A stretch of 64,000 bases of DNA from an uncultured Alistipes sp. (lineage in GTDB: Bacteria; Bacteroidota; Bacteroidia; Bacteroidales; Rikenellaceae): NCBI GenBank assembly GCA_944326855.1, contig CALVFO010000025.1, forward strand, positions 1-64,000. Direction: 5' to 3'. Numbering within the stretch: the first letter of the stretch is position 1; each line of letters begins with the position of its first letter. Position numbers and translations under genes: made by a program. Below, piece after piece: positions 39,738 to 46,288 of the stretch. The notes below the pieces were generated by a model, which was given only the letters and a program-made list of their open reading frames with translations, was not told the origin of the DNA and did not search any database.

Positions 39738-40931
39738 CTACTCATCCGAGGCCGACAACTGCAAGGCTAAAGCGGACAAAGTCGCCACCCCCACCTCCAA
39801 GGCTTCCTCATTGGGATTAAAGCCCGGGGTATGCAATCCTCCGGCTTCACGTCCATCCGCATACCCGACCCCCAAACGATAAAAAATACTGGGATAACGC
39901 TGCGAATAGGAGCCGAAATCCTCGGCCGTCATCCGCAACGGCAGTTCAGTAATATGCTCCTCACCCCACAACCCGGCCATCACATTCCGGGTGAGAGCGC
40001 TCAAAGCCGGATCGTTCACGACACAAGGATAGCCACCCGGCGCCACATTGACCTCAATGTGCACGCCATGAGCCTCGCCGATTCCGCGCGCGATTTCGTG
40101 TATCCGCTGCAAAGCCTGAGCCCGCCACCGTTCGTCCATGGTACGCAGGGTCCCTTCCAGAAAAACCTCGGAAGGAATTACATTCGTCGCACCGTCGGCC
40201 TGTATCCGCCCGAATGACAATACGGTCGGGATGGTCGTATCCACATTGCGACTGGCCACCTGCTGCAAAGCCATCAACAAAGCCGCCGACGCCAACACCG
40301 GATCGGCCAGCAAATGAGGCAAAGCCGCATGTCCTCCCCGACCCTGCACTTTAATCCGGATTTCATCGCTGGACGCCATGTACTTCCCGCTCCGCAAACC
40401 CAACGTCCCGGCCGGCAGTTCAGGAGCCACATGCTCGCCGACAAAGGCCCGCAGTTCATATCCCTGAAACGGATCCTCGGCCAACACCCGGGAAGCGCCT
40501 CCGGGACTCAACTCCTCACCCGGCTGAAAAAGCCCAAATACCGTCCCCTGTATCTCCCCGCGACAGGCCTGAAGCAAATGCATCGCTCCCAGCAAACAAG
40601 CCGTATGCAGATCGTGACCACAGGCATGCATCACCCCTGCATTTCGGGAGGAAAACGGCAAACCCGTATCTTCCTGAATCGGCAAAGCGTCCATATCGGC
40701 CCGCAAAACCACACCGCGTTTTCGATCGCCCCGCCCTTCGATCCGGGCCAGCAAACCAGTCCCCGCTACCGGCTCGAACGGAATCCCGGCCCGCGTCAAA
40801 CATTCGGCCACATAGCGCGAAGTCTCATATTCCTGAAACGACAGCTCCGGATGAGCATGCAGATGACGCCGAAAAGCCAATGTCCGGTCCCTCCATGCCC
40901 GAGCTGCCTTCTTAATCGTTTCGTAATCCAT
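39738..40931 (-). CDS. M20D-family amidohydrolase (N-acyl-amino acid deacylase type)
   Basis: Zinc metallohydrolase of 397 residues that likely removes acyl groups from amino acids. Metal-site motifs are RADMDALP (about 87-94), ACGHDLHTA (about 116-124), and FQPGEELSPGGA (about 151-162, with the catalytic Glu pair). A GEHVAPELPAGTLGLR segment and the dimerisation domain (about 200-310) follow. No signal peptide, so it is cytoplasmic. The family includes hippurate hydrolase and indole-acetyl-amino acid hydrolases; the substrate is not decidable. The MetH-like gene lies 139 bases upstream on the same strand. Confidence 0.92.
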   Translation of the reverse strand: MDYETIKKAARAWRDRTLAFRRHLHAHPELSFQEYETSRYVAECLTRAGIPFEPVAGTGLLARIEGRGDRKRGVVLRADMDALPIQEDTGLPFSSRNAGVMHACGHDLHTACLLGAMHLLQACRGEIQGTVFGLFQPGEELSPGGASRVLAEDPFQGYELRAFVGEHVAPELPAGTLGLRSGKYMASSDEIRIKVQGRGGHAALPHLLADPVLASAALLMALQQVASRNVDTTIPTVLSFGRIQADGATNVIPSEVFLEGTLRTMDERWRAQALQRIHEIARGIGEAHGVHIEVNVAPGGYPCVVNDPALSALTRNVMAGLWGEEHITELPLRMTAEDFGSYSQRYPSIFYRLGVGYADGREAGGLHTPGFNPNEEALEVGVATLSALALQLSASDE

Positions 40932-41070
40932 TTCCTTCTTTCTCGTATTCCTTTGTTGGCGGAGAACCGGGATCGTCCATCCTTTACATCGACCGATCCA
41001 TCCTCTTTCTGTCCGACGACCCGTCCCCGATGCGGATTCCGAACGGTCCGCCAGAACCCCTTCACTCCCG

Positions 41071-43656
41071 CTACGACAAACCCCGATCGAGTATCGTCAC
41101 AAAATCGGACGGTCCGGCGGCATAATACACCGGAGCATCGTATAACGGCTGCAAGGTATTTTCCACCCATCGGGCATCTACGGCCGGGCCACCCACCAGC
41201 AACGGAACCCGCAAACCTCGACGCCGGGCCTCCAGCGCCACCCGTACCATATCATCCCGCCCGCTGCCGAGCGTAGCCTGAAGAATGATCGCAACCGCCC
41301 CGCAACGCAACGTTTCATTCACGATCCGCAACGCCAACGGCCGACCGCTGAGATTTTCCACCCCATATCCCCGGGCCTGCAACAAAGGCAACACGGCATT
41401 TTTTCCCAGATCCTGTACATCTCCGGCCAGAGAAGGCAACATCACGCGACCTGTCGACGGAAGTTCGGAAATCCCGCTACGGCGCGACAAGGCCGAGGAG
41501 AGCTTTTGCACCACTTTCGCACTACGTATCCACTGGGGCCCAAACAGTTCATTTCCCCGCCATAAGACCGACAAACGTCGTATGGCTCCATCCCACGGAC
41601 CATCGCCCCAGTCCCGGAAATCACCCAGCTGTGCACCCACGACATCCAGCAGGCCTTCCGGATCCTCCAACTGACCGCAGACAATCGAACGGATCAAACG
41701 ATCGGGGCCCGATACGCCTTCCGATTCTGCCGCAAAGCCCTCCCTGGAGATGGTCGCCGAAGCCCAGGCCTTCAAACGGGAAGGGGCATCCGGGCGACGA
41801 CCCAATACCAAATCCTCACAACATTCCCGCAAATCGGGATCCATCTCCGTATATACCAATCGCAAGGCCGAAGGTTCCACCAAGCCCAAAGTCAATCCGG
41901 CCGGCACCGCATGATACAACAACACCGAACACAATCCGGCTCGGAGCCGAGGATCTTCGACATACGGTGCAGCAAAACATTCCAAATCTCCAAACAGACG
42001 GGCATCCGGGCAGTGCTTTCTGATCCACCGACAGGCTTCGATCGCATCGGCATTCCGATGCACATCCGCTCCATCTTCAGTCGTTGCCGGCGAGAGCATC
42101 ACATCAAAGATGATTTCTTCGGGACGCATGCCGGCTCCCGTCAACAAACAGTACATACGTCCGGCGATTCCGATGCTTCGTTCATAGCCGTCGGCCTCTC
42201 CCTGCTCATCAGCCAGGCGCAACACAGGTACAGCTCCATATCGCAAGACCTGATGCACATCGTCCAAAAAGGCTCGCTCGCCTCGGCACAACGAAACCGA
42301 CCGCATCAACGATTTCCCCTGCACGCACGCCAATCCCGTTTCCCACACCTCTCTCCGAGAGGACTCGATCAACCAGGGCACCCGGGAAACCCCCGGATCG
42401 GACATGGCCAGATTCAAAAAAGACCGCATGGCCTTCTCCGATTCGATTCCCTCGATATCCAGACAAACGCTCATCAACTGGGCGCCTGCATTCACCTGAC
42501 CGGAGACAAGTCCCAAGGCACTCTCATACTGTCCCGAGCGGATCTTCTCCGCAAAAGCCGTCTGCGCGGGACGAGCCCCGGCACCGATCACCCAAAACGA
42601 ATCCTCTGCTGAAAAGGTCAAATCTTCCAGTCCGCTCAAACGCGTCATGCGGGACAAAGCCGGTATCTTACGAGGCTCATAACGGATCGCCAAGGCAGCG
42701 ATGGCCCGGATATGATCCGGTGTGGTTCCACAACAGCCTCCGACAATATTCAACAATCCGTGCTGCAAATAACTTTCGATCGCATGCGCCATGCCTTCCG
42801 GCGTCTGGGCATATCCTCCGCTCCCATCCGGCAAACCGGCATTAGGATGCACCGACACGGCACAATCGGCCACCCGGGCGATCCGTTCCACAAACGGCAA
42901 CATCTGCTCCGCCCCCAATCCACAGTTCAACCCGACCGACAAGACATTTGCACGACGTACCGATGCATAAAAAGCCTCCAACGTCTGGCCCGACAGCGTT
43001 CTTCCGCTGGCATCGGTCAACGTACCGGAAACCATGGCCGGAATGCGAGTACCTTGTGCGGTGTTCACGGCATCCAAGGCATACAAGGCCGCTTTGGCAT
43101 TAAGCGCATCGAAAAAGGTTTCGATCAGAATCACATCGACCCCGCCGTCAACCAATCCCCGAATCTGATCGCGATAGGTACGTTCCAATTCTTCAAACGT
43201 TACCGACCGGGCCGACGGATCGTACAAATCGGGGGACAACGAAGCCGTCCGGTTGGTCGGACCTACCGATCCCGCCACAAAACGAGGTTTGGATGGCTCG
43301 ATCGCAGCATAACGATCTGCCAACGAACGGGCCAGTTGAGCCGCACGCAGATTGATTTCATACACGAATTCGGTCAAGGCGTAATCGGCCAACGAAATCG
43401 CATTGGCATTGAACGTATCGGTGGTAATGATGTCGGCCCCCGCCTGCAAATAGGCTTCATGAACCTGCCCGACCGCTTCGGGACGTATCAAAACCAACAA
43501 ATCGTTACACCCTTTGAGCGGAACCGACCATTCGGCAAAACGTTCGCCGCGATAATCGGACTCCTCCAACCCGTAACGCTGAATCATGGTGCCCAGACCT
43601 CCGTCCAACACCAAAATGCGCCGGGTAAGTTCATCATAAACGGAAAAAACAGACAT
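41071..43656 (-). CDS. MetH-like protein: intact homocysteine domain, degenerate folate and cobalamin domains
   Basis: An 861-residue relative of cobalamin-dependent methionine synthase. Residues 1-325 are a well-kept homocysteine-binding barrel (VLDGGLGTMIQ; zinc cysteines in GLNC at 245 and GGCCGT at 308-309). Residues about 353-625 align to the pterin-binding domain, but hallmark motifs are gone: GERTNVTGS reads GAGARPAQT, DINMDDG reads SVCLDIE, DSSKW reads ESSRR. Residues about 640-861 resemble the cap and cobalamin domains, but DxHxxG reads DVQDLG, so the cobalt-ligating histidine is Gln748, and the SGLITPS loop reads LQATLGS. The AdoMet reactivation domain (about 330 residues) is absent. 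The frame is unbroken. Normal folate/B12 methionine synthesis is unlikely; a different methyl donor, a partner, or a regulatory role is possible. Confidence 0.85.
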   Translation of the reverse strand: MSVFSVYDELTRRILVLDGGLGTMIQRYGLEESDYRGERFAEWSVPLKGCNDLLVLIRPEAVGQVHEAYLQAGADIITTDTFNANAISLADYALTEFVYEINLRAAQLARSLADRYAAIEPSKPRFVAGSVGPTNRTASLSPDLYDPSARSVTFEELERTYRDQIRGLVDGGVDVILIETFFDALNAKAALYALDAVNTAQGTRIPAMVSGTLTDASGRTLSGQTLEAFYASVRRANVLSVGLNCGLGAEQMLPFVERIARVADCAVSVHPNAGLPDGSGGYAQTPEGMAHAIESYLQHGLLNIVGGCCGTTPDHIRAIAALAIRYEPRKIPALSRMTRLSGLEDLTFSAEDSFWVIGAGARPAQTAFAEKIRSGQYESALGLVSGQVNAGAQLMSVCLDIEGIESEKAMRSFLNLAMSDPGVSRVPWLIESSRREVWETGLACVQGKSLMRSVSLCRGERAFLDDVHQVLRYGAVPVLRLADEQGEADGYERSIGIAGRMYCLLTGAGMRPEEIIFDVMLSPATTEDGADVHRNADAIEACRWIRKHCPDARLFGDLECFAAPYVEDPRLRAGLCSVLLYHAVPAGLTLGLVEPSALRLVYTEMDPDLRECCEDLVLGRRPDAPSRLKAWASATISREGFAAESEGVSGPDRLIRSIVCGQLEDPEGLLDVVGAQLGDFRDWGDGPWDGAIRRLSVLWRGNELFGPQWIRSAKVVQKLSSALSRRSGISELPSTGRVMLPSLAGDVQDLGKNAVLPLLQARGYGVENLSGRPLALRIVNETLRCGAVAIILQATLGSGRDDMVRVALEARRRGLRVPLLVGGPAVDARWVENTLQPLYDAPVYYAAGPSDFVTILDRGLS

Positions 43657-43722: not shown

Positions 43723-44805
43723 TTACTTTTTGAAGATCTCTACTTCAAAAAGTTTATCCCAGTACTTGCCGGTCACGAAGATACGACGCCCCTTGGCATC
43801 GTAGGCAATACCGTTGAAAACATCGGTTTCGGGGCCTATATCCGATGCGGAGAGCAGCCCGCTCATGTCGATCACCCCCGTAACGGCCCCCGTATGAGGA
43901 TCGATGCGTACGATCTTGTCGGTCGTGTATACATTCGCCCACAGTTCTCCGCCGATCCATTCCATTTCATTAATATACAATATCTTACTCTGATCCGTAT
44001 ACACTTCCAATGTGCGAAGCGGCTTGAAAGTAGCCGGATCGAGAACCTTGATCTTTTCCGTTCCGTCGCTCATGTACAACCAGCGACCGTCGGTAGCCAA
44101 CCCCCAGCCCTCACCGGCATAATTGAACTCGCCGACTTTGTCAAACGTCGCCCGATCATAAACCAACGCCTTGTTATTCTGCCAGGTCAGTTGATAAAAC
44201 TTGTCTTTCAACAACACCAAACCTTCCCCGAAGTATTCCCGAGGCAAATTGAGGTTTTGAAGCACCTGTCCCGTCGTCAGATCCACCTTCCGCAGGGATG
44301 ACTGCCCCAGAACCCCCGTACTTTCATACAACACGCCCTCATACCACAACAACCCCTGCGTATAGGCACCTTTGTCGTGCGGATAAACGGCCTTCACCTT
44401 ATGACCGTACAGCACGGGAGGGTCGGCCGCCAAAACCGTACACTCCCCGGCCCGTTTTTCGGACTGACCGTCCCGATAAGCCGTCATCGTATAAATCAAT
44501 CGTCCCGTCGGATGATTGCGGCGAATGATGTAACGATAGCCCGTTGAATCCACCCGACACAAACGCTGACCCCGTACCGACAACACCACACTGTCGACCT
44601 GTGTCCCCGATTCGAGCGTATAAACCATTCGGATCGTATCGCCCTGGCGGACCTGCGTCCCATACACCGGCCACACCGAAGCGAGCAACCGGGGGGGCTG
44701 CACCTCCGATGAGGTTCCGGCAGAACGGTCCCCAGAACCCACACACGAAAGCAATAGCCCTGCCATGCCTATCAGGATCCAAGCAAATCTTCCTCTCATT
44801 CGCAT
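43723..44805 (-). CDS. Glutamine cyclotransferase-type lipoprotein
   Basis: Exported protein of 360 residues in the family that converts N-terminal glutamine to pyroglutamate. The ATG at 44805 gives a lipoprotein signal (MRMRGRFAWILIGMAGLLLSC); the frame is open upstream but would cross the promoter. Residues about 30-115 form an Ig-like domain, and about 120-358 a five-bladed propeller (DKGAYTQGLLWYEG, GEGWGLATDG, KILYINEMEWIGGELWANVY, DVFNGIAYD). A TACCTTTG -7 box lies just upstream. It follows nothing on its strand, being divergent from serS. Confidence 0.9.
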   Translation of the reverse strand: MRMRGRFAWILIGMAGLLLSCVGSGDRSAGTSSEVQPPRLLASVWPVYGTQVRQGDTIRMVYTLESGTQVDSVVLSVRGQRLCRVDSTGYRYIIRRNHPTGRLIYTMTAYRDGQSEKRAGECTVLAADPPVLYGHKVKAVYPHDKGAYTQGLLWYEGVLYESTGVLGQSSLRKVDLTTGQVLQNLNLPREYFGEGLVLLKDKFYQLTWQNNKALVYDRATFDKVGEFNYAGEGWGLATDGRWLYMSDGTEKIKVLDPATFKPLRTLEVYTDQSKILYINEMEWIGGELWANVYTTDKIVRIDPHTGAVTGVIDMSGLLSASDIGPETDVFNGIAYDAKGRRIFVTGKYWDKLFEVEIFKK

Positions 44806-44828
44806 CTTACGGCATTTATTTGATAACA

Positions 44829-44836
44829 CAAAGGTA
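44829..44836 (-). promoter_or_regulatory. Probable -7 promoter element of the glutamine cyclotransferase gene
   Basis: TACCTTTG on the minus strand, 24 bases before the ATG at 44805. This supports the chosen start. Confidence 0.5.
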
Positions 44837-44973
44837 TAAAAAAACGGACAGGTCCGGGTCGTTCCCGCCCAAATTCCCGGCATTTTCACCCCTTCAAATT
44901 CCGGTTTAACCCTTTCTGAACGGTCCTTTGAAAGATAAAACGCTCGAAAGGTCCGATTTAGTGAGTTTCTTGT

Positions 44974-45016: not shown

Positions 45017-46288
45017 ATGCTGACACTCAAGCAACTTCGTGAAAATCGTGCCTACGCGCTCGAACGACTGGCCGTCAAAGGCGTAGACGCAACCGCCACC
45101 CTGGATAAAATCGAACAACTGGACGACACCCGCAAAGCCATTCAGGGTAAACTGGACGCTAATCTGGCTCAACAAAATGCCGTCGCCAAACAGATCGGCA
45201 TGCTGTTCAAGGCCGGCAAGCAGGACGAAGCCAACGCCGCCAAAGCGACGACCGCCGAGCTCAAAGAAGAATCGAAAGCCTTAGAAAGCCAACTGCGCCA
45301 AACCGAAGCACAACTCAACGAAGCCATCGTTACGCTGCCTAACTTCCCGCATGTCTCGGTTCCCAAAGGATTAACGGCGGCCGACAACGAAATTGTACGT
45401 ACCGGCGGTGAAATGCCCCATCTGCCCTCCGATGCCAAACCTCACTGGGAACTGGCCAGTCAATACGACATCATCGATTTCGAACTGGGCGTCAAACTGA
45501 CCGGAGCCGGATTCCCCGTCTATAAAGGGCAAGGATCGGCTCTGCAACGGGCACTGATCTCCTTCTTCCTGGATTGCAATACGGCAGCCGGATATACGGA
45601 AGTCATGCCTCCGCTGATGGTCAACGAAGCATCGGGTTTCGGCACGGGCCAGTTGCCCGATAAGGAAGGACAGATGTACCACGTCAACCTCGACAACTTC
45701 TACCTGATTCCCACGGCCGAAGTGCCCGTCACGAATATCTATCGAGACGTCATCCTCAACGAAAGCGACTTCCCCGTCAAACTGACCGCCTATACACCCT
45801 GCTTCCGCCGCGAAGCCGGATCCTACGGCAAAGATGTGCGGGGTCTCAACCGTCTGCACCAGTTCGATAAAGTGGAAATCGTACAGATCAGCCATCCGGA
45901 TGTTTCCTATCAGGCTCTGGACGGCATGGTAGCCCATGTAGAAAGCATCGTGCAAAAACTCGAACTGCCGTACCGAATCGTCCGTCTGTGCGGAGGCGAC
46001 ATGAGTTTCACCTCGGCGCTGACTTTCGATTTCGAAGTGTATTCGGCCGCTCAAGGTCGTTGGCTGGAAGTCTCTTCGGTATCGAACTTCGAATCTTTCC
46101 AGGCCAATCGTTTGAAACTGCGCTGGAAAGACAGCAACAAGAAAACCCATTTGGCCCATACGCTCAATGGCAGTTCTTTGGCTCTGCCGCGTATCGTGGC
46201 CGCCCTGCTGGAAAACAACCAGACGCCCGACGGAATCCGCATTCCCAAGGCGCTGGTGCCCTACACCCGCTTCGAGATGATCAAATAG
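45017..46288 (+). CDS. serS: Seryl-tRNA synthetase
   Basis: Class II synthetase charging tRNA-Ser. A long antiparallel coiled coil occupies about 30-100 (Lys/Glu/Ala-rich). Class II motif 2 is CFRREAGSYGKDVRGLNRLH (about 258-277), and motif 3 is near the C-terminus (SSLALPRIVAALLENNQ). Length 423 is normal. It stands alone: divergent from the cyclotransferase gene and followed by a terminator at 46311. Confidence 0.97.
   Translation: MLTLKQLRENRAYALERLAVKGVDATATLDKIEQLDDTRKAIQGKLDANLAQQNAVAKQIGMLFKAGKQDEANAAKATTAELKEESKALESQLRQTEAQLNEAIVTLPNFPHVSVPKGLTAADNEIVRTGGEMPHLPSDAKPHWELASQYDIIDFELGVKLTGAGFPVYKGQGSALQRALISFFLDCNTAAGYTEVMPPLMVNEASGFGTGQLPDKEGQMYHVNLDNFYLIPTAEVPVTNIYRDVILNESDFPVKLTAYTPCFRREAGSYGKDVRGLNRLHQFDKVEIVQISHPDVSYQALDGMVAHVESIVQKLELPYRIVRLCGGDMSFTSALTFDFEVYSAAQGRWLEVSSVSNFESFQANRLKLRWKDSNKKTHLAHTLNGSSLALPRIVAALLENNQTPDGIRIPKALVPYTRFEMIK

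Follow-up and report, generated by a model that had tools for sequence, protein, structure and literature searches.

The methionine synthase MetH carries a homocysteine (Hcy)/zinc module, a folate barrel, a cap and a B12-binding module on one chain, and its Hcy and folate barrels are reported to be rigidly joined (PMC10567725, PMC13376404). In roseobacters, related tasks have been assigned to separate proteins. In Ruegeria pomeroyi, betaine demethylation and methionine synthesis are both reported to require a separate corrinoid protein; according to the authors' model, a methylated nutrient can charge this protein, which hands the methyl group to a separate PF02574 subunit (PMC12478193). For Bmt of Phaeobacter inhibens, which is described as belonging to a split MetH, direct use of dimethylsulfoniopropionate (DMSP) and betaine in vitro is reported (PMC12366255). 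These reports therefore give precedent for both a corrinoid and a direct-donor mode of homocysteine methylation. The gene considered here (41071..43656, minus strand) lies in a 64,000-nucleotide stretch, called the window, of an uncultured Alistipes sp. (assembly GCA_944326855.1, contig CALVFO010000025.1, positions 1 to 64,000). Judged by the sequence features tested, it is the genome's own metH orthologue and no functional MetH. The explanation that we consider probable as a whole is a metH orthologue with decayed cofactor modules, whose Hcy module works with a methyl source from outside.

The frame, which was assigned by translation, NCBIfam models, alignment and synteny, is open over 861 residues plus the stop codon, with zero internal stops. 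Its Hcy/zinc module (residues 1-330; 42667..43656) is intact by Pfam and by the count of invariant positions: S-methyl_trans (PF02574) matches residues 15-321 at 1.3e-94, and translation and alignment place all three cysteines that are zinc ligands by homology, Cys245 (42922..42924) and Cys308-Cys309 (42730..42735). The folate-barrel module (residues 345-628; 41773..42624) is predicted to keep its fold and has lost its pterin-site motifs. In alignment with full-length MetHs, GERTNVAGS is replaced by GAGARPAQT, DVCMDDG by SVCLDIE, NSIS by RSVS, FDPN by FDVM and GGVSN by GDLEC, and the Pterin_bind match (368-590, 5.9e-9) is weak. The cap (residues 645-735; 41452..41724) is the most diverged module. 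In the B12-binding module (residues 736-861; 41074..41451), whose fold is also predicted to be intact, the nucleotide-pocket motifs are lost (SGLIT to QATLG, GGATTS to GGPAVD) together with DxHxxG: the cobalt loop DVHDIG reads DVQDLG, with Gln748 (41413..41415) replacing the cobalt-ligating histidine. All of these features lie on the minus strand. The B12-binding match (737-830, 1e-7) scores 32.2 bits against a cut-off of 32.1, and no Pfam match to Met_synt_B12, the fused reactivation domain, was found in the protein. The NCBIfam MetH models span residues 7 or 11 to 857-858, and the protein stays under the cut-offs of both (749.9 of 1010.85 and 784.9 of 1497 bits). A sequence-only reading of this DNA had described intact zinc cysteines in an unbroken frame, replaced folate motifs, DVQDLG in place of DxHxxG and a missing reactivation domain, and had concluded that this is not an ordinary methionine synthase. 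The alignment places the changes at those sites and adds others in the folate and B12 pockets; that description is confirmed, and its conclusion is supported. The possibility that the motifs are present but shifted is ruled out by the same alignment.

The window genome, G000 (2.48 Mb, 55 contigs, 93% complete), shares the degenerate form with two congeners. In G001 (99% complete) the homologue has 860 residues, is 70% identical to the window protein and contains no stops, which makes a sequencing error very unlikely. G006, a single 2.86-Mb contig, also has a degenerate MetH free of stop codons. The extent of the loss was measured at positions invariant across 27 full-length MetHs of the family (93 in the Hcy module, 112 in the folate barrel, 28 in the cap, 52 in the B12 module and 36 in the reactivation domain). 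G000, G001 and G006 retain 91, 91 and 90 of the Hcy positions, 61, 56 and 54 of the folate positions, 9, 8 and 5 of those in the cap and 18, 18 and 22 of those in the B12 module. When each of the 27 was left out in turn, the minimum retained fraction was 0.95 for Hcy, 0.92 for folate, 0.88 for the cap, 0.98 for B12 and 0.92 for reactivation. Much of the module loss is older than the split of G000 and G001, because positions lost in both often share the same new residue (25 of 31 in B12, 24 of 46 in the folate barrel, 9 of 16 in the cap). Distances from the outgroup G019 (locus L012) follow the same division: 0.77-0.86 for the Hcy module of the three degenerate proteins versus 0.44-0.79 for the other six, 1.60-1.80 versus 0.25-0.42 for the folate barrel, and 1.85-1.95 versus 0.30-0.52 for B12.

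Orthology to metH is also borne out by gene position. The order in G008 is serS, a glutamine cyclotransferase-like gene (QC), metH, metF and an M20 amidohydrolase gene, and QC-metH-metF-M20 recurs in G002, G004 and G005 and in the other genera G010, G019, G023 and G025 (the G007 contig begins at metH, and metF of G027 is on a separate contig). The window has this order minus metF: QC (43723..44889, minus strand) is the conserved upstream neighbour, M20 (39738..40931, minus strand) the downstream one, and a 139-bp gap (40932..41070) stands at the site of the reactivation domain and metF of congeners with full MetH. Searched by tblastn, the gap gave no remnant of the domain or of the gene. Another neighbour is a gene conserved in the same genus and some others (45017..46288, plus strand), putatively seryl-tRNA synthetase-like. 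In G001 and G006, too, metF is gone from between metH and M20. Since both G000 and G001 are without the reactivation domain and metF, one deletion could have taken both; G006 has lost metF and retained the domain. The G006 gene (L037:4501-8235) keeps 28 of the 36 invariants of this AdoMet (S-adenosylmethionine) reactivation domain, with RPAFGY now RPAFGI, despite its ruined cap and B12 module. The M20 enzyme had been put forward as a possible special partner of the protein. This proposal is set aside, because M20 comes after metF even in congeners whose MetH is complete and is thus an ancestral neighbour, which still adjoins the gene after the reduction of MetH. In genus g22 (L061, L062, L065 and others) a stand-alone Hcy match abuts or overlaps the M20 match, which suggests translational coupling of a pair that outlasts the loss of metF. 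No riboswitch was found near the locus; Rfam at gathering cut-offs gave one tRNA only (147 kb, seven sources).

A second metH or a metE in this genome, which the sequence-only reading had named as a check, was sought in the assembly and neither was found. The window protein is its one PF02574 match, and MetE (PF01717) is absent from all eight genomes searched, G000 included, while the same search was positive in 10 of 14 control genomes; replacement by MetE or a core-MetE enzyme was rejected on this basis. MetF (PF02219) is present in five of eight genomes searched and absent from G000, G001 and G006, for which draft gaps are an improbable cause because of the completeness of G001 and the single contig of G006. 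SahH was found in eight of eight genomes (seven of the same genus and G027; 9 of all 18 searched) and LuxS in none of the same eight (6 of all 18). G000, G001 and G006 each have a full-length PF01053 enzyme, presumably of the O-acetylhomoserine-sulfhydrylase type in G000. With SahH and the PF01053 enzyme present, homocysteine production is to be expected, and the product must be dealt with. Among relatives, G044 has LuxS and a stand-alone Hcy gene and no full-length PF01053 match; its homocysteine may come from S-adenosylhomocysteine (SAH) recycling alone, which fits a salvage role. G057 has a full-length PF01053 match and LuxS, yet no match to the Hcy module. It could be argued that canonical chemistry with methyl-tetrahydrofolate (methyl-THF) and cobalamin persists despite the altered motifs, as weak Pterin_bind and B12-binding matches remain and both folds are predicted to be intact. 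However, three species have lost the pterin-site, cobalt-histidine and nucleotide-pocket motifs and are without MetF as well, and G000 and G001 have no fused reactivation domain; we give this idea almost no credence.

In the wider family, 112 genomes of at least 90% completeness were surveyed, 81 with a metF match and 31 without (11 of the latter identified by subtraction). With the window protein as query, all 81 metF-containing genomes have a MetH match extending past the Hcy module, in pieces in G049 and G118 and with an internal TAG in G020. The 31 metF-less genomes comprise 3 with degenerate MetH, 18 with a stand-alone Hcy protein (271-309 residues, plus one of 341 with an uncertain start) and 10 without a match; nine metF-containing genomes have a stand-alone Hcy gene in addition to full metH. 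All 26 stand-alone genes examined out of 27 (G111 was left out) adjoin QC and 25 of them (not G141) adjoin M20, which is the metH slot. Because the stand-alone genes occupy this slot, we conclude that MetH was reduced in place. In the Hcy tree the stand-alone proteins form one clade (ultrafast bootstrap, UFBoot, 100), apart from G000, G001 and G006 (97); the G154 protein entered alignment and tree with an untrimmed N-terminal read-through, and slot position is firmer evidence than the tree because the stand-alone branches are long. Trees of the folate, cap and B12 modules also group G006 with G000 and G001, on long branches that make the grouping unreliable, and flanking genes group them weakly (51). 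By the tree, MetH reduction is placed in two lineages, with the window gene as a half-way stage. G110 and G151 (L081, L082) have a diverged full-length metH beside metF elsewhere, with the stand-alone Hcy gene still at the former metH position; the second metH groups with G016 and G028 (94) and may have been regained by transfer. In 15 genomes of g22 the MetH matches are merely 39-43% identical. Outside the family, none of six metF-less order-level genomes matched the window protein. A scan of genome contigs gave three distant loci only, and one of viral contigs gave none.

Residue retention separates the two reduced forms further. Every one of the 26 stand-alone proteins, like the three degenerate MetHs, keeps Asp18, Ala72-Gly73-Ala74, Gly129, Glu179, Gly242, Asn244, Cys245, Pro271, Gly306, Cys308, Cys309 and Gly310; Asp18 and Glu179 presumably correspond to Hcy-binding residues of BHMT. 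At least 26 of 27 other Hcy modules have Asn83, Gln224, Asn272 and certain loops around 30-50 and 147-156; these features are mostly gone from the stand-alone proteins and retained by the degenerate MetHs. This comparison set differs from the 27 MetHs used for the invariant counts and includes the second metHs of G110 and G151, the partial G003 gene and one Gemmataceae MetH. The retention could reflect continued contact of the degenerate MetHs with a corrinoid, or only the fact that their folate barrel is still attached.

Selection was estimated between G000 and G001 by pairwise codon maximum likelihood, which at saturated dS (1.3-2.0) gave an omega (dN/dS) of 0.076 for the Hcy module, 0.119 for the folate barrel and 0.108 for B12, with omega = 1 rejected in each (twice the log-likelihood difference 223, 141 and 66.5). 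Three full-length pairs gave 0.008-0.072 over all modules. Because dS is saturated, omega shows constraint and does not by itself show a changed rate; the case for such a change is made by the invariants and distances. For the cap (33% identical, saturated, with a fit dS of 7.1 set aside) no omega is claimed, and several G006-G008 and G000-G008 fits with absurd dS were also set aside. On this codon evidence, the folate and B12 modules, ligand-free by their motifs, are still constrained since the split of G000 and G001. The sequence-only reading had named relaxed selection and stop codons among homologues as signs of a dying pseudogene. The first part is borne out in so far as folate, cap and B12 invariants are lost; no stops occur in G000, G001 or G006 and omega is far below 1, and a pseudogene is ruled out by these open frames and ratios. 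A slower version would be decay in a methionine auxotroph, in which methionine synthesis has ended and the Hcy module is the slowest to go. The 10 metF-less genomes without any match and the bulk loss of folate, cap and B12 invariants are in line with it, and 25 gut genomes with homocysteine-making genes and without MetH or MetE are reported as scored auxotrophs (PMC9026213). However, omega is far below 1 in the Hcy, folate and B12 modules since the split, the frames are open in three species with nearly untouched Hcy invariants, and the zinc and Hcy residues persist in 26 of 26 stand-alone copies. We consider such decay improbable.

The retained modules are also recognisable in a structure model. 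An AlphaFold2 model built from four sequences (mean pLDDT 79.6, pTM 0.62) shows an Hcy barrel, an eight-strand folate barrel and a five-strand B12 domain; AlphaFold2 training included MetH structures, and the model may lean on them. Its top Foldseek match is the N-half of human MetH (TMt 0.90, root-mean-square deviation 3.1 over 648 columns), and the same fold was also found in 5dmm and 1lt8 (MmuM/BHMT type). The rigid joining of the Hcy and folate barrels in MetH offers a simple reason for keeping the folate barrel, and structural support for the Hcy barrel is the probable reason why the folate and B12 modules persist without their ligands. A large retained scaffold, together with a methyl donor that is so far putative, would also suit an Hcy module that has turned into a homocysteine-binding regulator or sink without methyl transfer. 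However, all three zinc cysteines are kept and Pfam finds no regulatory domain in the protein, so that this role is very unlikely.

If the protein is an enzyme, it must obtain methyl groups otherwise than from methyl-THF via its own cobalamin, as the sequence-only reading had proposed. Most likely it still methylates homocysteine with a methyl group from outside its own chain. A candidate source is contig C34 of the same genome (L035:5682-10697), which encodes a URO-D-type methyltransferase, a major facilitator superfamily (MFS) transporter, a corrinoid protein, a Met_synt_B12-like protein and a second URO-D-type protein. The corrinoid protein (211 residues, DLHDIG) is closest to NCBIfam models of the MtgC/MtbC type, all below cut-off, and beside it lies the stand-alone reactivation-like protein (225 residues). 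The core of corrinoid, reactivation-like and second URO-D proteins is present in all three metF-less congeners. G001, unlike the G006 stretch, also has matches to the first URO-D gene, the MFS gene and an aldo-keto reductase gene. No corrinoid match was found in G004, G007 or G008, and no stand-alone Met_synt_B12 match in G004 or G008. C34 is a possible methyl-corrinoid system present in several species of the genus. By analogy with split methionine synthases, the donor in this genus could well be a separate methyl-corrinoid protein such as that of C34, a view that we hold tentatively.

Collectively, these observations suggest an older enzyme that may be turning into a simpler one with a methyl group supplied from elsewhere. 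In the order of events that we propose, metF would have been lost from the operon, ending the methyl-THF supply to MetH. The folate site, cap and cobalamin site would then have decayed and the reactivation domain been deleted, while the Hcy/zinc module was held under strong purifying selection. Homocysteine from SAH hydrolase, and probably from the O-acetylhomoserine-sulfhydrylase-type enzyme, would be methylated with the external methyl group. A more elaborate scenario makes the window protein a methionine synthase of gut Bacteroidales-like bacteria that works without folate and stands, in evolution, between MetH and a stand-alone Hcy methyltransferase. It would be fed by a corrinoid protein charged via URO-D-type methyltransferases from methylated nutrients, and its empty modules would be under selection for a new structural or binding role. 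Taken in full, this scenario is speculative and rather unlikely.

Several observations weigh against the explanation of a decayed metH orthologue fed from outside. Apart from the saturation of dS, the NG86 ratios for G000-G001 (0.098 Hcy, 0.151 folate, 0.177 B12) overlap those of the full-length pairs with a defined value (0.008-0.152), and the Hcy omega is no lower than in full-length pairs. For motif integrity, 27 MetHs were read rather than all 81 metF-containing genomes. The survey counts are not independent events because the genomes are related, and the losses may be few. G038 (85% complete) has a MetH match without metF, in a contig that ends inside the gene. As for the donor, the C34 core is also present in the metF-containing congeners G002, G003 and G005, so that its presence is not peculiar to genomes without metF, and the URO-D proteins in it could serve an acceptor of their own. 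Further, the weak probe P0001 gave no corrinoid match in the 18 metF-less genomes with stand-alone proteins, although it gave one in 18 metF-containing genomes; these metF-less genomes may need another donor.

This last point leads to a rival in which the Hcy module alone, in the manner of MmuM or BHMT and without a corrinoid, acts on S-methylmethionine, betaine, DMSP-like compounds or S-adenosylmethionine. In its favour, the 18 metF-less relatives keep the Hcy module only, all 26 stand-alone proteins retain the zinc and homocysteine residues, and the nine genomes that have a stand-alone gene in addition to full metH and metF suggest a separate use; the in vitro activity of Phaeobacter Bmt on DMSP and betaine would be a precedent (PMC12366255). 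However, the Hcy modules of G000, G001 and G006 are still MetH-like in nearly all of the 93 invariants, they keep Asn83, Gln224 and Asn272, which the stand-alone proteins have mostly lost, and the MmuM and BHMT cut-offs are unreached (114.6 of 215 and 125.3 of 338 bits). An enzyme of this kind is a serious possibility, if short of probable. For the present genus in particular, a small donor such as S-methylmethionine, betaine or S-adenosylmethionine could likewise be the source, a view that we hold with slightly less credence than the corrinoid one.

Under the preferred explanation, a metH orthologue with decayed cofactor modules and an outside methyl source, annotation would mislead in two ways. 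By sequence the window gene passes for methionine synthase and would predict B12- and folate-dependent synthesis where neither seems possible, and methionine auxotrophy could be wrongly assigned to relatives that carry the stand-alone form. Across the family, a series of forms shows a multidomain enzyme shedding cofactor modules in place, alongside metF loss, with the half-way stage open and under selection. This series makes testable which methyl donor serves a MetH-derived Hcy module alone, and how methyl flow is rewired once folate or B12 is given up. In titles and abstract beginnings of the open-licence literature, no description of such a degenerate MetH or of stand-alone genes in the metH slot was recognised.

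Among known systems, the core methionine synthases MesA-MesD are reported to share methionine synthesis without the folate part (PMC7857596); unlike them, the window genome has no PF01717 match (none in the eight genomes searched). Enzymes of the MmuM/BHMT type have the same fold, and in them the Hcy module suffices without folate or B12, but the window protein is closest to MetH in sequence and stays below their model cut-offs. The roseobacter split methionine synthases (MtgC/MtgD/MtgE of Ruegeria pomeroyi, cbp/Bmt of Phaeobacter inhibens) are reported to have a PF02574 homocysteine subunit apart from the corrinoid protein, and according to the authors MtgC is not derived directly from MetH (PMC12478193). 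The window protein differs in that its Hcy module is still fused to ruined folate and B12 modules, and its link to C34 is inferred. Compared with MetH itself (TIGR02082, PRK09490), the window protein is without the folate motifs, the cobalt histidine, the B12 nucleotide-pocket motifs and the fused reactivation domain, and its assembly is without metF; it nevertheless shares with MetH the module order Hcy-folate-cap-B12, an intact Hcy/zinc module and orthology by both position and sequence.

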